From assembly GCF_031348265.1 (NCBI RefSeq), contig NZ_CP133771.1:4402001-4466000 (forward strand): a stretch of 64,000 nt of DNA, in the 5' to 3' direction. The notes under the pieces were generated by a model that worked only from the letters and a program-made list of their open reading frames with translations, ran no database searches and had not been told where the DNA came from. A program made the position numbers and the translations under genes. Source of the stretch: Streptomyces collinus. GTDB taxonomy: Bacteria; Actinomycetota; Actinomycetes; Streptomycetales; Streptomycetaceae. Shown piece after piece: positions 1 to 57,226 of this stretch. Positions within the stretch are counted from its first letter, which is position 1, and the number at the start of each line of letters is the position of its first letter.

Positions 1-1429
1 TGATCGTCGCCGTCGGGCCGTTACGGTGCTTTCCCACGATGATGTCCGCCTCGCCCGCGCGCGGCGACTCCTTCTCGTACGCGTCCTCGCGGTGCAGAAG
101 GATCACCATGTCGGCGTCCTGCTCGATGGAACCCGACTCACGCAGGTCGGACACCATCGGCTTCTTGTCCGTACGCTGCTCGGGACCACGGTTCAGCTGG
201 GAGAGCGCGATCACCGGAACCTCCAGCTCCTTCGCCAGGAGCTTGAGGTTCCGGGACATGTCCGAGACTTCCTGCTGCCGGCTCTCGGAGCGCTTGGAAC
301 CACCGGCCTGCATCAGCTGCAGATAGTCGATGATCACGAGCTTGATGTCGTTGCGCTGCTTCAGCCGACGGCACTTCGCACGAATCTCCATCATCGACAG
401 GTTCGGGGAGTCGTCGATGTAGAGCGGTGCGGACGAGACCTCGGGCATCCGGCGCGCCAGGCGCGTCCAGTCGTCGTCCGTCATGGTGCCGGACCGCATG
501 TGGTGCAGGGCGACGCGGGCCTCTGCGGACAGCAGACGCATCGCGATCTCGTTGCGCCCCATCTCCAGGGAGAAGATGACGCTCGGCAGGTTGTGCTTGA
601 TCGACGCGGCCCGGGCGAAGTCCAGAGCGAGCGTCGACTTACCCATCGCGGGACGGGCCGCGATGACGATCATCTGCCCCGGGTGCAGACCGTTGGTCAG
701 GGAGTCGAGGTCGGTGAATCCCGTGGGGACGCCCGTCATCTCGCCGCTGCGTGAGCCGATCGCCTCGATCTCGTCGAGCGCGCCCTCCATGATGTCGCCG
801 AGCGGCAGGTAGTCCTCGCTGGTGCGCTGCTCGGTGACCGCGTAGACCTCCGCCTGGGCGCGGTTGACGATCTCGTCGACGTCGTCGTCGGCCGCGTATC
901 CCATCTGTGTGATGCGGGTACCCGCCTCGACCAGTCGGCGCAGGACGGCCCGCTCGTGGACGATCTCCGCGTAGTACGCCGCGTTGGCCGCCGTGGGGAC
1001 CGTCTGGACGAGGGTGTGCAGATACGAGGCCCCGCCGACCTTGTTGATCTCGCCGCGTTTGGTGAGCTCGGCCGCGATCGTGATGGGGTCCGCCGGCTCG
1101 CCCTTGGCATAGACGTCGAGGACAGCCTGGTAGATCGTCTCGTGGGCCGGCTTGTAGAAGTCGTGGCCCTTGAGGATCTCGACGACGTCGGCGATGGCGT
1201 CCTTGGACAGGAGCATGCCGCCGAGGACGGACTGCTCGGCGTCGATGTCCTGCGGCGGTACCCGCTCGAACGACGGGGCCGATCCGCCGTCCCACCCACC
1301 GTTGTCCCTGCCGCGCTCGTGCTGTTCGTCGCGGCCGCGGGCTCCGTCACCACGTCGGCGGGAGGCGGGCAGACGATCACTGGGACCGCTGTCGGCCCAC
1401 GGATCGTCCAAGGGCTCGGAAATGCTCAC
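1..1429 (-). CDS. dnaB: Replicative DNA helicase DnaB (3' end outside window)
   Basis: Hexameric helicase that unwinds DNA at the replication fork and is loaded at oriC. The GTG start at 1429 follows GGAGGAGG and opens VSISEPLDDPWADSG. After a charged linker comes the N-terminal domain (from about residue 60, DIDAEQSVLGGMLL), then the RecA-type core with Walker A AARPAMGKST near residue 260, Walker B VIIDYLQLM near 365, and SQLNRGPEQR further on. 476 codons are present and the reading stops at GPTATI, so by family length only about 15 C-terminal residues should be missing. No intein is visible in the Walker A region. The upstream intergenic region carries a DnaA-box cluster, which could tie expression to DnaA (inference). 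Identification is secure. Confidence 0.97.
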   Translation of the reverse strand, partial: MSISEPLDDPWADSGPSDRLPASRRRGDGARGRDEQHERGRDNGGWDGGSAPSFERVPPQDIDAEQSVLGGMLLSKDAIADVVEILKGHDFYKPAHETIYQAVLDVYAKGEPADPITIAAELTKRGEINKVGGASYLHTLVQTVPTAANAAYYAEIVHERAVLRRLVEAGTRITQMGYAADDDVDEIVNRAQAEVYAVTEQRTSEDYLPLGDIMEGALDEIEAIGSRSGEMTGVPTGFTDLDSLTNGLHPGQMIVIAARPAMGKSTLALDFARAASIKHNLPSVIFSLEMGRNEIAMRLLSAEARVALHHMRSGTMTDDDWTRLARRMPEVSSAPLYIDDSPNLSMMEIRAKCRRLKQRNDIKLVIIDYLQLMQAGGSKRSESRQQEVSDMSRNLKLLAKELEVPVIALSQLNRGPEQRTDKKPMVSDLRESGSIEQDADMVILLHREDAYEKESPRAGEADIIVGKHRNGPTATI

Positions 1430-1612: not shown

Positions 1613-1875
1613 TTATCCACAGGCCATGTGGACGACGGCCCAGATGCTGTGGAGAACTCCGCGAAACCTGTGCACGACCCGGTGGACAGGCCTGTGAACA
1701 AGCAGCGACCCTCACGAGGTGAACCACCCTGACCTGCACCTTTGTCGTCCACCGGCTGTGCAGAAGAAAAACTTTCGCAACAGGCCCAAGATCGCCTCGA
1801 ACAGTGCACAGCCGTGCGCACCCCAGGACAGAAAGTAAGGGTCGCAAAAGCTTTGCATCTCTTACCTGTGGACGA
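1613..1875. promoter_or_regulatory. DnaA-box cluster between dnaB and the MATE gene
   Basis: Seven 9-mers resemble the Streptomyces DnaA box (YYRTCCACA): TTATCCACA at 1613-1621, then on the minus strand TCGTCCACA 1627-1635, TTCTCCACA 1648-1656, TCGTGCACA 1669-1677 and CTGTCCACC 1681-1689, TCGTCCACC at 1745-1753 on plus, and TCGTCCACA 1867-1875 on minus. They fill most of the 460-base gap between the divergent dnaB and MATE genes. No reading frame in the gap looks real. The cluster could bind DnaA as a regulator of dnaB or as a titration site (inference). Confidence 0.65.
1835..1865. promoter_or_regulatory. Inverted repeat upstream of the MATE gene
   Basis: A symmetric dyad centred on 1850: GTAAG (1835-1839) pairs with CTTAC (1861-1865), and GCAAA (1844-1848) with TTTGC (1852-1856), with matching 4-base gaps. 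It covers the proposed -35 element of the next gene, so it looks like an operator. The regulator is unknown. Confidence 0.4.
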
Positions 1876-1882
1876 TTAGATT
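1853..1882 (+). promoter_or_regulatory. Candidate promoter of the MATE gene, likely leaderless
   Basis: TTGCAT (1853-1858), an 18-base spacer, then TAGATT (1877-1882). The predicted start of transcription, 7-8 bases on, falls on the A of the ATG at 1890. No ribosome binding site precedes the gene. A DnaA box (1867-1875) lies in the spacer. Confidence 0.45.
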
Positions 1883-1889
1883 GATGCAC

Positions 1890-3227
1890 ATGACACAGGC
1901 CCCCGCGCGCCGTCGAACCGGCCGGAGACAGCACGACCGAGAGATCGTCGCGCTGGCCGTGCCCGCCTTCGGCGCCCTCGTCGCCGAGCCCCTCTTCCTC
2001 ATCGCCGACACCGCCATCGTGGGCCACCTGGGCACCGCCCAACTCGCCGGTCTCGGCGTCGCCTCGGCTCTGCTGATGACTGCCGTGAGCGTCTTCGTCT
2101 TCCTCGCCTACGCCACGACGGCCGCGGTTGCCCGTCGCGTCGGAGCGGGAGACCTCCAGGCCGCCATCCGCCAAGGCATGGACGGTATCTGGCTGGCACT
2201 GCTCCTCGGCGCTGCCGTCGTCGCCGTCGCTCTGCCGACAGCACCCCATCTCGTGGACCTCTTCGGTGCCTCGGACGCGGCAGCCCCCTACGCGATCACC
2301 TATCTGCGCATCTCCGTGCTCGGCATACCGGCCATGCTCGTGGTCCTCGCCGCGACGGGTGTCCTGCGCGGTCTGCAGGACACCAGGACTCCGCTCTACG
2401 TCGCCATCGCCGGCTTCGTCGCCAACGCCGCCCTCAACGCCGGGCTCGTCTACGGCGCCGATCTGGGGATAGCCGGTTCCGCGTGGGGCACCGTCATCGC
2501 CCAGTGCGGCATGGCTGCGGTCTATCTCGTGGTGGTTCTGCGAGGAGCACGCAAGCATGGCGCTTCGCTACGCCCGGATGCCGCCGGGATCAGGGCCTCC
2601 GCCCAAGCCGGTGTGCCCCTGCTGGTGCGCACCCTCTCCCTGCGGGCGATCCTGCTGATCGCCACGGCGGTCGCCGCCCGTCTAGGTGATGCCGACATCG
2701 CCGCCCACCAGATCATCCTCTCCCTGTGGAGCCTGCTGGCCTTCGCCCTCGACGCCATCGCCATCGCGGGGCAGGCCATCATCGGTCGCTACCTCGGAGC
2801 CGGTGACGCCCAAGGCGCCCGGGACGCCTGCCGCCGCATGGTCGAGTGGGGTATCGCCGTCGGGGTCGTTCTCGGCATTCTGGTGGTCATCACCCGACCG
2901 GCGTTCTTGCCCCTGTTCACCAGCGACCCGGCAGTCCAGGATGTGGCGCTGCCCGCCCTGATCATCGTCGCTCTCTCCCAGCCCATCTCCGGCATCGTCT
3001 TCGTCCTGGACGGGGTCCTGATGGGTGCCGGAGACGGCCCTTACCTGGCCTGGGCGATGCTGATCACTCTGGCGGTCTTCACGCCGGTCGCTCTGCTGGT
3101 ACCGGTACTGGGCGGCGGTCTCACCGCTCTCTGGGCCACGATGACGCTGATGATGACTGTGCGAATGCTGACCCTGTGGCTTCGCACTCGCTCGGGCCGC
3201 TGGATCGTGACGGGCGCGACCCGCTGA
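1890..3227 (+). CDS. MATE family multidrug/metabolite efflux transporter
   Basis: A 445-residue integral membrane protein with about 12 hydrophobic segments in two related halves, the length and layout of MATE (DinF-branch) exporters, which export drugs or metabolites by H+ or Na+ antiport. The start of the first half reads IVALAVPAFGALVAEPLF and the conserved GVLRGLQDTRTPL lies around residue 160. ATG 1890 is preferred because a good -10 lies directly upstream and there is no Shine-Dalgarno. ATG 1884 and TTG 1881 are in-frame alternatives. It stands alone, ends in a strong terminator before rplI, and is followed by three parS-like sites. Substrate cannot be told from sequence. Confidence 0.9.
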   Translation: MTQAPARRRTGRRQHDREIVALAVPAFGALVAEPLFLIADTAIVGHLGTAQLAGLGVASALLMTAVSVFVFLAYATTAAVARRVGAGDLQAAIRQGMDGIWLALLLGAAVVAVALPTAPHLVDLFGASDAAAPYAITYLRISVLGIPAMLVVLAATGVLRGLQDTRTPLYVAIAGFVANAALNAGLVYGADLGIAGSAWGTVIAQCGMAAVYLVVVLRGARKHGASLRPDAAGIRASAQAGVPLLVRTLSLRAILLIATAVAARLGDADIAAHQIILSLWSLLAFALDAIAIAGQAIIGRYLGAGDAQGARDACRRMVEWGIAVGVVLGILVVITRPAFLPLFTSDPAVQDVALPALIIVALSQPISGIVFVLDGVLMGAGDGPYLAWAMLITLAVFTPVALLVPVLGGGLTALWATMTLMMTVRMLTLWLRTRSGRWIVTGATR

Positions 3228-3229
3228 CC

Positions 3230-3243
3230 GTTTCACGTGAAAC
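3230..3243. other. parS: parS site (perfect)
   Basis: GTTTCACGTGAAAC, the exact Streptomyces ParB-binding palindrome, 3 bases after the MATE stop codon. Confidence 0.93.
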
Positions 3244-3250
3244 GCTGCCT

Positions 3251-3264
3251 GTTTCACGTGAACA
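3251..3264. other. parS: Degenerate parS half-matched site
   Basis: GTTTCACGTGAACA: 12 of 14 bases match, the last two differ. It lies between two perfect sites, so it may be a decayed copy that still helps ParB spread. Confidence 0.55.
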
Positions 3265-3287
3265 CGGTGTGCTCCACAGAACGCGGT

Positions 3288-3301
3288 GTTTCACGTGAAA
3301 C
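3288..3301. other. parS: parS site (perfect)
   Basis: Exact 14-bp palindrome in the MATE-rplI intergenic region, third of the local trio. Confidence 0.93.
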
Positions 3302-3364
3302 AGGCGGACGCCGGGGCGGAAGGCACCTGCCCAAGAAGCGGGAGGCACCTGCCCAACAAAACGA

Positions 3365-37891: not shown

Positions 37892-37913
37892 CGGCGACGG
37901 CGGTACACCGCTG

Positions 37914-37945
37914 AGGGCGCCCCCTGATGCTTCAGGGGGCGCCCT
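37914..37945 (+). terminator. dnaA terminator
   Basis: Perfect 14-bp stem (AGGGCGCCCCCTGA and its complement), 4-base loop, followed by TTCTC. Confidence 0.85.
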
Positions 37946-37958
37946 TTCTCATGCACAC

Positions 37959-37972
37959 GTGCACGCGTGCAC
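37959..37972. repeat. 14-bp palindrome upstream of oriC
   Basis: GTGCACGCGTGCAC, directly after the dnaA terminator and overlapping a second copy of the CACGTGCAC type. Not a DnaA box. Function unknown. Confidence 0.5.
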
Positions 37973-38032
37973 ACGGGCCCCGGGGACGACACGACGACAC
38001 GGGCGGGCGCCGCGACGCCCCTCCCCGATGGC

Positions 38033-38126
38033 TCCCGAGCCCGCCCCCCCCCCCACCAAGCCCTTCCGAGCCCCTACTGACCCTTTTCCGAGCCCTCACC
38101 GAGGCCTTCCGAGTCCCTCCGAGCCC
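38033..38126. repeat. Five iteron-like TYCCGAGCCC repeats at left edge of oriC
   Basis: Copies start at 38033, 38064, 38086, 38107 and 38117 (the last two with one change each), spaced 31, 22, 21 and 10 bases, near whole helical turns. An 11-base run of C lies between the first two (38044-38054). They are not DnaA boxes. Confidence 0.5.
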
Positions 38127-38204
38127 GCTGCTGCGCATCCCCGGTCCTCGCCCCCGGGCACCTGATCGCAACCCACTGTTCGAATAGCCGCCGGGTTACG
38201 GCCT

Positions 38205-38777
38205 CCCTCCACAGATTCGTGCACTTTCTGCCGTCCACATCCTGGGGACCGGGAAGTTGTCCAGATCGTGTCCACAGCAGCCACTGTTGAAAGACCATCA
38301 GACCAGCTCAGGTGCTTGTGGATTCGTGGACGAAGGATCTCCACAGACTGTGGACGACGAGATGATCCACAGGCTGTGCACCGAGTTGTCCACCGGCCAC
38401 CCACAGGCTGGGTGGAGTTGTCCCCAGCAAACAGTCGCTTCTCCACATGCCTGTCCACTGTTCGGCAACACGACGCGCCTCCTCACCGGGTCGAGTGAAA
38501 GGCGTCACACAAAGGTGCCGGGTTGGGCTGTGGGAAAGGTGGGTAAAGCTGGGGACGGCGCTGGGGAGAACTCGCCTCCCCCTGTGCACGGCGTGTGCAG
38601 AACTTTCTGTTCTCCACAGATGCGCCCGGTTGTCCACCGCCTCCACCCACAGGGCCCGTGGACAAAATTCCTGCCCTGAGCTGGGCAAACGAGGTTATCC
38701 ACGGTATCCACAGCCCCTACTACTACTCCCGACTAGAGAGAGCTGGGAATCCGTTTCGAAGGGGGCCCTGTGCACAA
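38205..38777. other. oriC: Origin of replication oriC
   Basis: About 19 DnaA-box-like 9-mers fall in two groups between dnaA and dnaN. Group one (38205-38459) includes CCGTCCACA 38231, TTGTCCAGA 38257, GTGTCCACA 38268, GAATCCACA (minus) 38317, TCGTCCACA (minus) 38349, TGATCCACA 38363, TTGTCCACC 38386, TTGTCCCCA 38418, TTCTCCACA 38439 and CTGTCCACT 38451. Group two (38610-38777) includes TTCTCCACA 38610, TTGTCCACC 38630, TTGTCCACG (minus) 38657, TTATCCACG 38695, GTATCCACA 38704 and TTGTGCACA (minus) 38769. The number and two-part layout match the Streptomyces origin as published. No parS is inside. Confidence 0.93.
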
Positions 38778-38957
38778 CTCGCTCTTCGGTGCCCGGCTGC
38801 CCCTCGTCACGACTTGACCCCGAGAGGCACCTACTGTCAGTGCGGTGCGTCAGACTGGTCCCCGGTGTCCTCCCCCTCACAGGGACCGTCGACACCGAGA
38901 CAGACGACGAGGGCCAGGCAGAGCGAGAAGCGCCGGCAACAGCAGGAGGCGGCAACA

Positions 38958-57026: not shown

Positions 57027-57226
57027 TTGTCCACAGCGGGTGTCGGATCTTGTGCACACGGTGCGGGAACACATGTGCCCCCTGTCACCGACCTGCATCT
57101 CCGCAGGTCAGGCAGGGGGCGAACAAGTTTTCGAGTACCGGTACTTCCGTCATACCGGCGTCAACACCCAGCGGGTTATCCACAGATCGTCTTCATTATC
57201 CCCATGTGGAAAACTGCTGTGGATAA
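57027..57226. promoter_or_regulatory. DnaA-box cluster between rhomboid gene and crgA
   Basis: Six 9-mers: TTGTCCACA 57027, TTGTGCACA 57050, TTATCCACA 57176, TTATCCCCA 57196, TTTTCCACA (minus) 57205 and TTATCCACA (minus) 57218. Three are perfect boxes of the strongest kind. It lies past both convergent genes, about 18 kb right of oriC. A DnaA-box cluster near crgA is, from memory, reported in S. coelicolor as limiting initiation. Confidence 0.75.

Follow-up and report, generated by a model that had tools for sequence, protein, structure and literature searches.

We asked what a crowd of DnaA boxes does upstream of the replicative helicase gene dnaB, outside the origin of replication. The original prediction offered two options: DnaA could set dnaB expression there, or the site could hold spare DnaA. 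The window, that is, the whole stretch of 64,000 nucleotides that was analysed, covers positions 4402001-4466000 of the 8.87 Mb single-contig chromosome of a Streptomyces. At its left end lies dnaB (replicative DNA helicase; 1..1429, minus strand, extending past the window start; TIGR00665, 542.9 bits), for which a GTG start codon at 1429-1427 and a Shine-Dalgarno sequence can be read; the next genes on the minus strand are rplI, rpsR and ssb. A MATE-family exporter gene (1890..3227, plus strand; TIGR00797, 363.5 bits) is divergent from dnaB, and the box cluster occupies the intergenic region between both. We place the start of the MATE gene at ATG 1890, which is nearly invariant, and not at the ATG at 1884, whose A only about 20% of relatives share; the gene is probably leaderless. 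Immediately 3' of it, at 3229-3302 of the window, three parS-like GTTTCACGTGAAAC-type repeats were also observed. For comparison we used oriC (37892..38954), which lies between dnaA and dnaN as identified by TIGR00362 and TIGR00663 matches. Its boxes, at 37949-38777, agree with the predicted distance of about 36 kb between oriC and the dnaB-side cluster.

The pattern T[TC][GAC]TNCACA has seven matches here, spanning exactly 1613-1875 of the window, and together with the profile matches of the two neighbouring genes this bears out the seven box-like sites predicted between dnaB and the exporter. Starting from the dnaB side, the boxes are TTATCCACA (1613..1621, plus strand), invariant in 80/80 Streptomyces; TCGTCCACA (1627..1635, minus strand), where some box variant is always present (80/80); and TTCTCCACA (1648..1656, minus strand), identical in 77/80 Streptomyces and replaced by TTGTCCACA in 3. 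They are followed on the minus strand by the box-like sites TCGTGCACA (1669..1677; core retained in 80/80 Streptomyces), TTGTTCACA (1693..1701; identical in 78/80) and TTCTGCACA (1757..1765; identical in 70/80), and finally by a second TCGTCCACA box (1867..1875, minus strand), whose core is retained in all 80 Streptomyces and which lies within the spacer of the likely MATE promoter. Weaker box-like sites occur at 1681 (minus strand) and at 1745, 1802 and 1882 (plus strand). The first of them, CTGTCCACC (1681..1689), is identical in 77/80 Streptomyces and degenerate across the wider family, and the second, TCGTCCACC (1745..1753), shows partial conservation of the core pattern. Most of the boxes are oriented in the direction of dnaB transcription.

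That the density of the cluster rivals oriC had also been predicted, and our scan agrees. The seven sites make this the top 300-bp stretch in the 800 kb around oriC, where the runner-up has four, and on an ad hoc weighted score the dnaB cluster ranked first with 26.1 against 24.0 for the best oriC window. The clusters at 57.0 kb in the window and at 4359.3 kb in the genome scored 15.4 and 11.6, and the best window in the 400 kb sampled from both arms did not exceed 8.1. In the 1.2 Mb of chromosome scanned in total (the 800 kb around oriC plus the 400 kb of the arms), the dnaB-side cluster is therefore the densest, marginally above oriC. Could it be a chance build-up of box-like 9-mers? The pattern is permissive and was picked after the site had been seen, so that shuffle figures alone could flatter the cluster; comparative tests depend less on this post hoc choice. 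Order-1 shuffles of the same 800-kb DNA gave one or two sites per 300 bp and never more than two, whereas the boxes recur independently throughout the class. Shuffles and comparative data together rule chance out, and we give this explanation practically no credence. As is expected of a DnaA-box cluster, several TTNTNCACA-type 9-mers are packed into a few hundred bases, more than chance would give.

Selective constraint on the box cores is likewise what one expects of such a cluster. Across 80 Streptomyces species, the position and core of the boxes are kept while the spacers drift: mean information is 1.97 of 2 bits in the core, 1.86 at degenerate box positions and 1.26 in the spacers, and the boxes at 1627, 1648, 1669, 1693 and 1867 change almost solely between box variants. 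The corresponding values were 1.61, 1.20 and 0.77 in 25 further sequences of the family, most of which come from genomes without the exact two-box pattern; among these 25, site 1693 is the consensus TTGTCCACA in 10 and TTATCCACA in 4. The inner-box spacing is retained in most sequences. A search for the exact two-box pattern matched 236 of 396 genomes and was too strict, as the missed genomes mostly still have clusters; two-box matches with other spacers may sit elsewhere than at dnaB. One could imagine that a factor other than DnaA recognises the conserved sequence, whose resemblance to DnaA boxes would then be secondary, since some non-box bases in 1597-1706 are also near-invariant among the 80 closest species. 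However, the spacers diverge and the cores persist in the wider family, and DnaA binding was measured directly at the mycobacterial counterpart (PMC7738170), which leaves another factor a highly improbable explanation.

The tie to dnaB holds across the Actinomycetes. For 22 genomes from outside the family, box density was 7.7 boxes/kb within 400 bp upstream of dnaB, compared with 0.14/kb over the remainder of the locus; the reversed motif gave 0.57/kb and 0.15/kb in the same two parts. A further 18 genomes outside the family showed 6.4 boxes/kb in the 500 bp upstream of dnaB, against 0.22/kb for the reversed motif. At least one box is present in 40/40 testable genomes outside the family, and at least two in 36/40. 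Clusters precede dnaB in genomes with MATE as the upstream gene, in others with rplI in that place and in a few with neither of them; the boxes are independent of the neighbouring genes, as those of a DnaA-regulated dnaB promoter should be. Loss of the boxes in related species had been named as an observation that would speak against the original prediction; they are kept in Streptomyces, in the family and in the class.

We then considered whether the boxes follow dnaB or the origin. In most genomes with dnaB and oriC on one contig, dnaB is near oriC, so that proximity to the origin and proximity to dnaB are separated only by the lineage of two congeners, G397 and G628. In G397, dnaB and dnaA are on different contigs, at least 473 kb and at least 177 kb from the respective contig ends; the two genes are therefore at least 650 kb apart. 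Seven boxes stand ahead of dnaB in G397, and five in G628. Because the clusters persist at dnaB in these genomes, the boxes appear to follow dnaB rather than the origin, as seen in this one lineage. Among the matches listed, further genomes in which dnaB has moved away from the origin came from the f3 lineage only. We also observed that dnaB of G397 is outside the rplI/MATE neighbourhood and that G628 likewise lacks both upstream genes.

What lies between the array and dnaB? The likely dnaB promoter, as read from the sequence, is of the RecA-NDp (PafBC) type (TTGTCAGTG at 1500-1492, N8, TAGAAC at 1483-1478, minus strand). The RecA-NDp consensus is tTGTCRGTG-N8-TAnnnT, and the putative dnaB promoter would match it except at the final −10 base, which is C and not T. 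A RecA-NDp-like pattern is present at dnaB in 79/80 Streptomyces; the stricter pattern is present in only 8/47 wider loci. RecA-NDp-type promoters are bound by PafBC (PMC8223512) and precede the damage genes of Actinomycetales (PMC5087735), and mitomycin induces dnaB of M. tuberculosis, partly via PafBC (PMC8151990). The array does not overlap the likely dnaB promoter but lies farther upstream, at a distance of 112 to about 370 bp. Hairpins in the dnaB leader were also considered and rejected, the RNAalifold consensus being weak and covariation little.

On the exporter side, the likely MATE promoter was recognised by consensus match (TTGCAT at 1853-1858, N18, TAGATT at 1877-1882, plus strand), and TTGCAT-N17..19-TAGATT recurs in 60/80 Streptomyces species. 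Box 1867, with its conserved core, falls between the −35 and −10 sequences of this promoter, and the cluster might accordingly serve to control the exporter, repressing it through that box. However, 170-280 bp separate the strongest boxes from the MATE promoter, and clusters persist where the upstream gene is rplI and not MATE. Because they persist without MATE, control of the exporter is very unlikely to be the main role of the cluster.

The cluster could also be a reservoir of the datA/D78 type, which would bind surplus DnaA near oriC, be duplicated early in each round and lower free DnaA, any control of dnaB being incidental. A distance of only 36 kb from oriC is consistent with this idea, as is the concentration of E. 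coli boxes near oriC (PMC12371093). Moreover, two further clusters are found in the same region. The first one (57027..57226) contains at least four strong boxes and lies between two converging genes, crgA and a putative rhomboid-like gene, whose 3' ends face it; no promoter is expected in such a place. Across 30 genomes, box density is 3.6 boxes/kb within 600 bp downstream of crgA against 0.28/kb upstream of it, and 26/30 have at least one box. Rv0011c is crgA, and the crgA-downstream cluster therefore corresponds in position to the Rv0010c-Rv0011c site of mycobacteria. The authors who reported that DnaA site saw no obvious correspondence in other species (PMC7738170). The second one, between pheA and serS (genome 4359160-4359472), was present in 5/5 other family genomes tested and is essentially absent from other families; confined to the family, it was rejected as a class-wide site. 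Three strong boxes in about 55 bp were also seen at genome 4368082-4368136.

We take the pheA-serS cluster to be, probably, the D78 cluster of S. coelicolor. In 2006, Smulczyk-Krawczyszyn et al. reportedly described three clusters close to the origin of that species, H69, H24 and D78; of the three, only D78 was reportedly deleted, and replication frequency rose, which favours a reservoir. Outside oriC, three clusters likewise dominate here, and since those at crgA, dnaB and pheA-serS fit H69, H24 and D78, the dnaB site is likely H24. We assume that it is the probable orthologue, as the gene neighbourhoods fit the cosmid names, and offer this as a lead; a literature text search for the S. coelicolor cosmid gene names gave no match. 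Nevertheless, if the cluster were purely a reservoir, it would have no need to remain upstream of dnaB in dozens of families or to follow dnaB away from the origin as in G397 and G628. We regard the reservoir as a rather unlikely main function, one that nonetheless deserves some weight.

Altogether, we consider it probable that the cluster is a DnaA-binding regulatory element for dnaB, most likely an activating one, with DnaA titration as a secondary effect and repression of the MATE gene as a possible third. DnaA would bind the box array upstream of the dnaB promoter, and the bound protein would modulate, most likely activate, dnaB transcription, so that helicase supply would track the level or activity of the initiator. 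The bound array may also remove some DnaA near the origin, which makes storage of spare DnaA possible as a second effect, and DnaA at the box inside the MATE promoter would probably repress the MATE gene. Between the two options offered at the outset, control of dnaB is better supported than storage because the boxes occur class-wide regardless of the upstream gene, because they accompany a relocated dnaB and because of the mycobacterial data. As the same arrangement is found across Actinomycetes, DnaA probably helps to set the amount of helicase and is probably also held there. The distance of at least 112 bp between the array and the likely dnaB promoter is unlike that of classical DnaA-activated promoters and counts against this reading.

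If this reading is true, the initiator is tied to helicase supply throughout a bacterial class, and the cluster is a defined element with which titration can be weighed against transcriptional control in Streptomyces, a genus in which the hyphae hold many copies of the chromosome. It further connects the clusters of Streptomyces with the DnaA sites that have been mapped in mycobacteria. Going further, one could imagine a conserved extra-origin DnaA circuit in Actinomycetes, in which the array at dnaB activates, the one downstream of crgA is not part of a promoter, and DnaA and PafBC are combined at the dnaB promoter. We propose this circuit tentatively, as a possibility that falls somewhat short of an even chance.

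How does the dnaB cluster compare with known systems? Like it, datA of E. coli consists of clustered boxes that could bind DnaA and lies close to oriC without being part of it; datA requires IHF and stimulates DnaA-ATP hydrolysis, and unlike the proposed role of the dnaB cluster, it is not a dnaB promoter element. The present cluster is near oriC, as a datA/D78-type locus would be, yet the boxes follow dnaB in G397 and G628. In Caulobacter crescentus, which belongs to a distant phylum, dnaB has predicted upstream DnaA boxes and DnaA-dependent expression and is listed as a DnaA regulon member (PMC8203912, which relays Hottes et al. 2005 for this point). The closest case is that of mycobacteria, from which a DnaA site upstream of dnaB is already known. 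By IDAP-seq in M. tuberculosis and ChIP-seq in M. smegmatis, DnaA binds most strongly at five sites, namely oriC, rpmH-dnaA, the stretch upstream of dnaB, Rv0010c-Rv0011c and Rv3843c-RVnc0040, and the DnaA I282T variant binds more weakly upstream of dnaB and under-expresses dnaB, a link between binding and dnaB level that comes from a single point mutant (PMC7738170). In M. tuberculosis and M. smegmatis (Rv0057 region), DnaA boxes thus stand upstream of dnaB as they do in Streptomyces, at a site that is among the strongest of the genome and where less binding goes with low dnaB expression. What sets Streptomyces apart from mycobacteria is a divergent MATE gene that separates rplI from dnaB, and an array whose box density equals or exceeds that of oriC.
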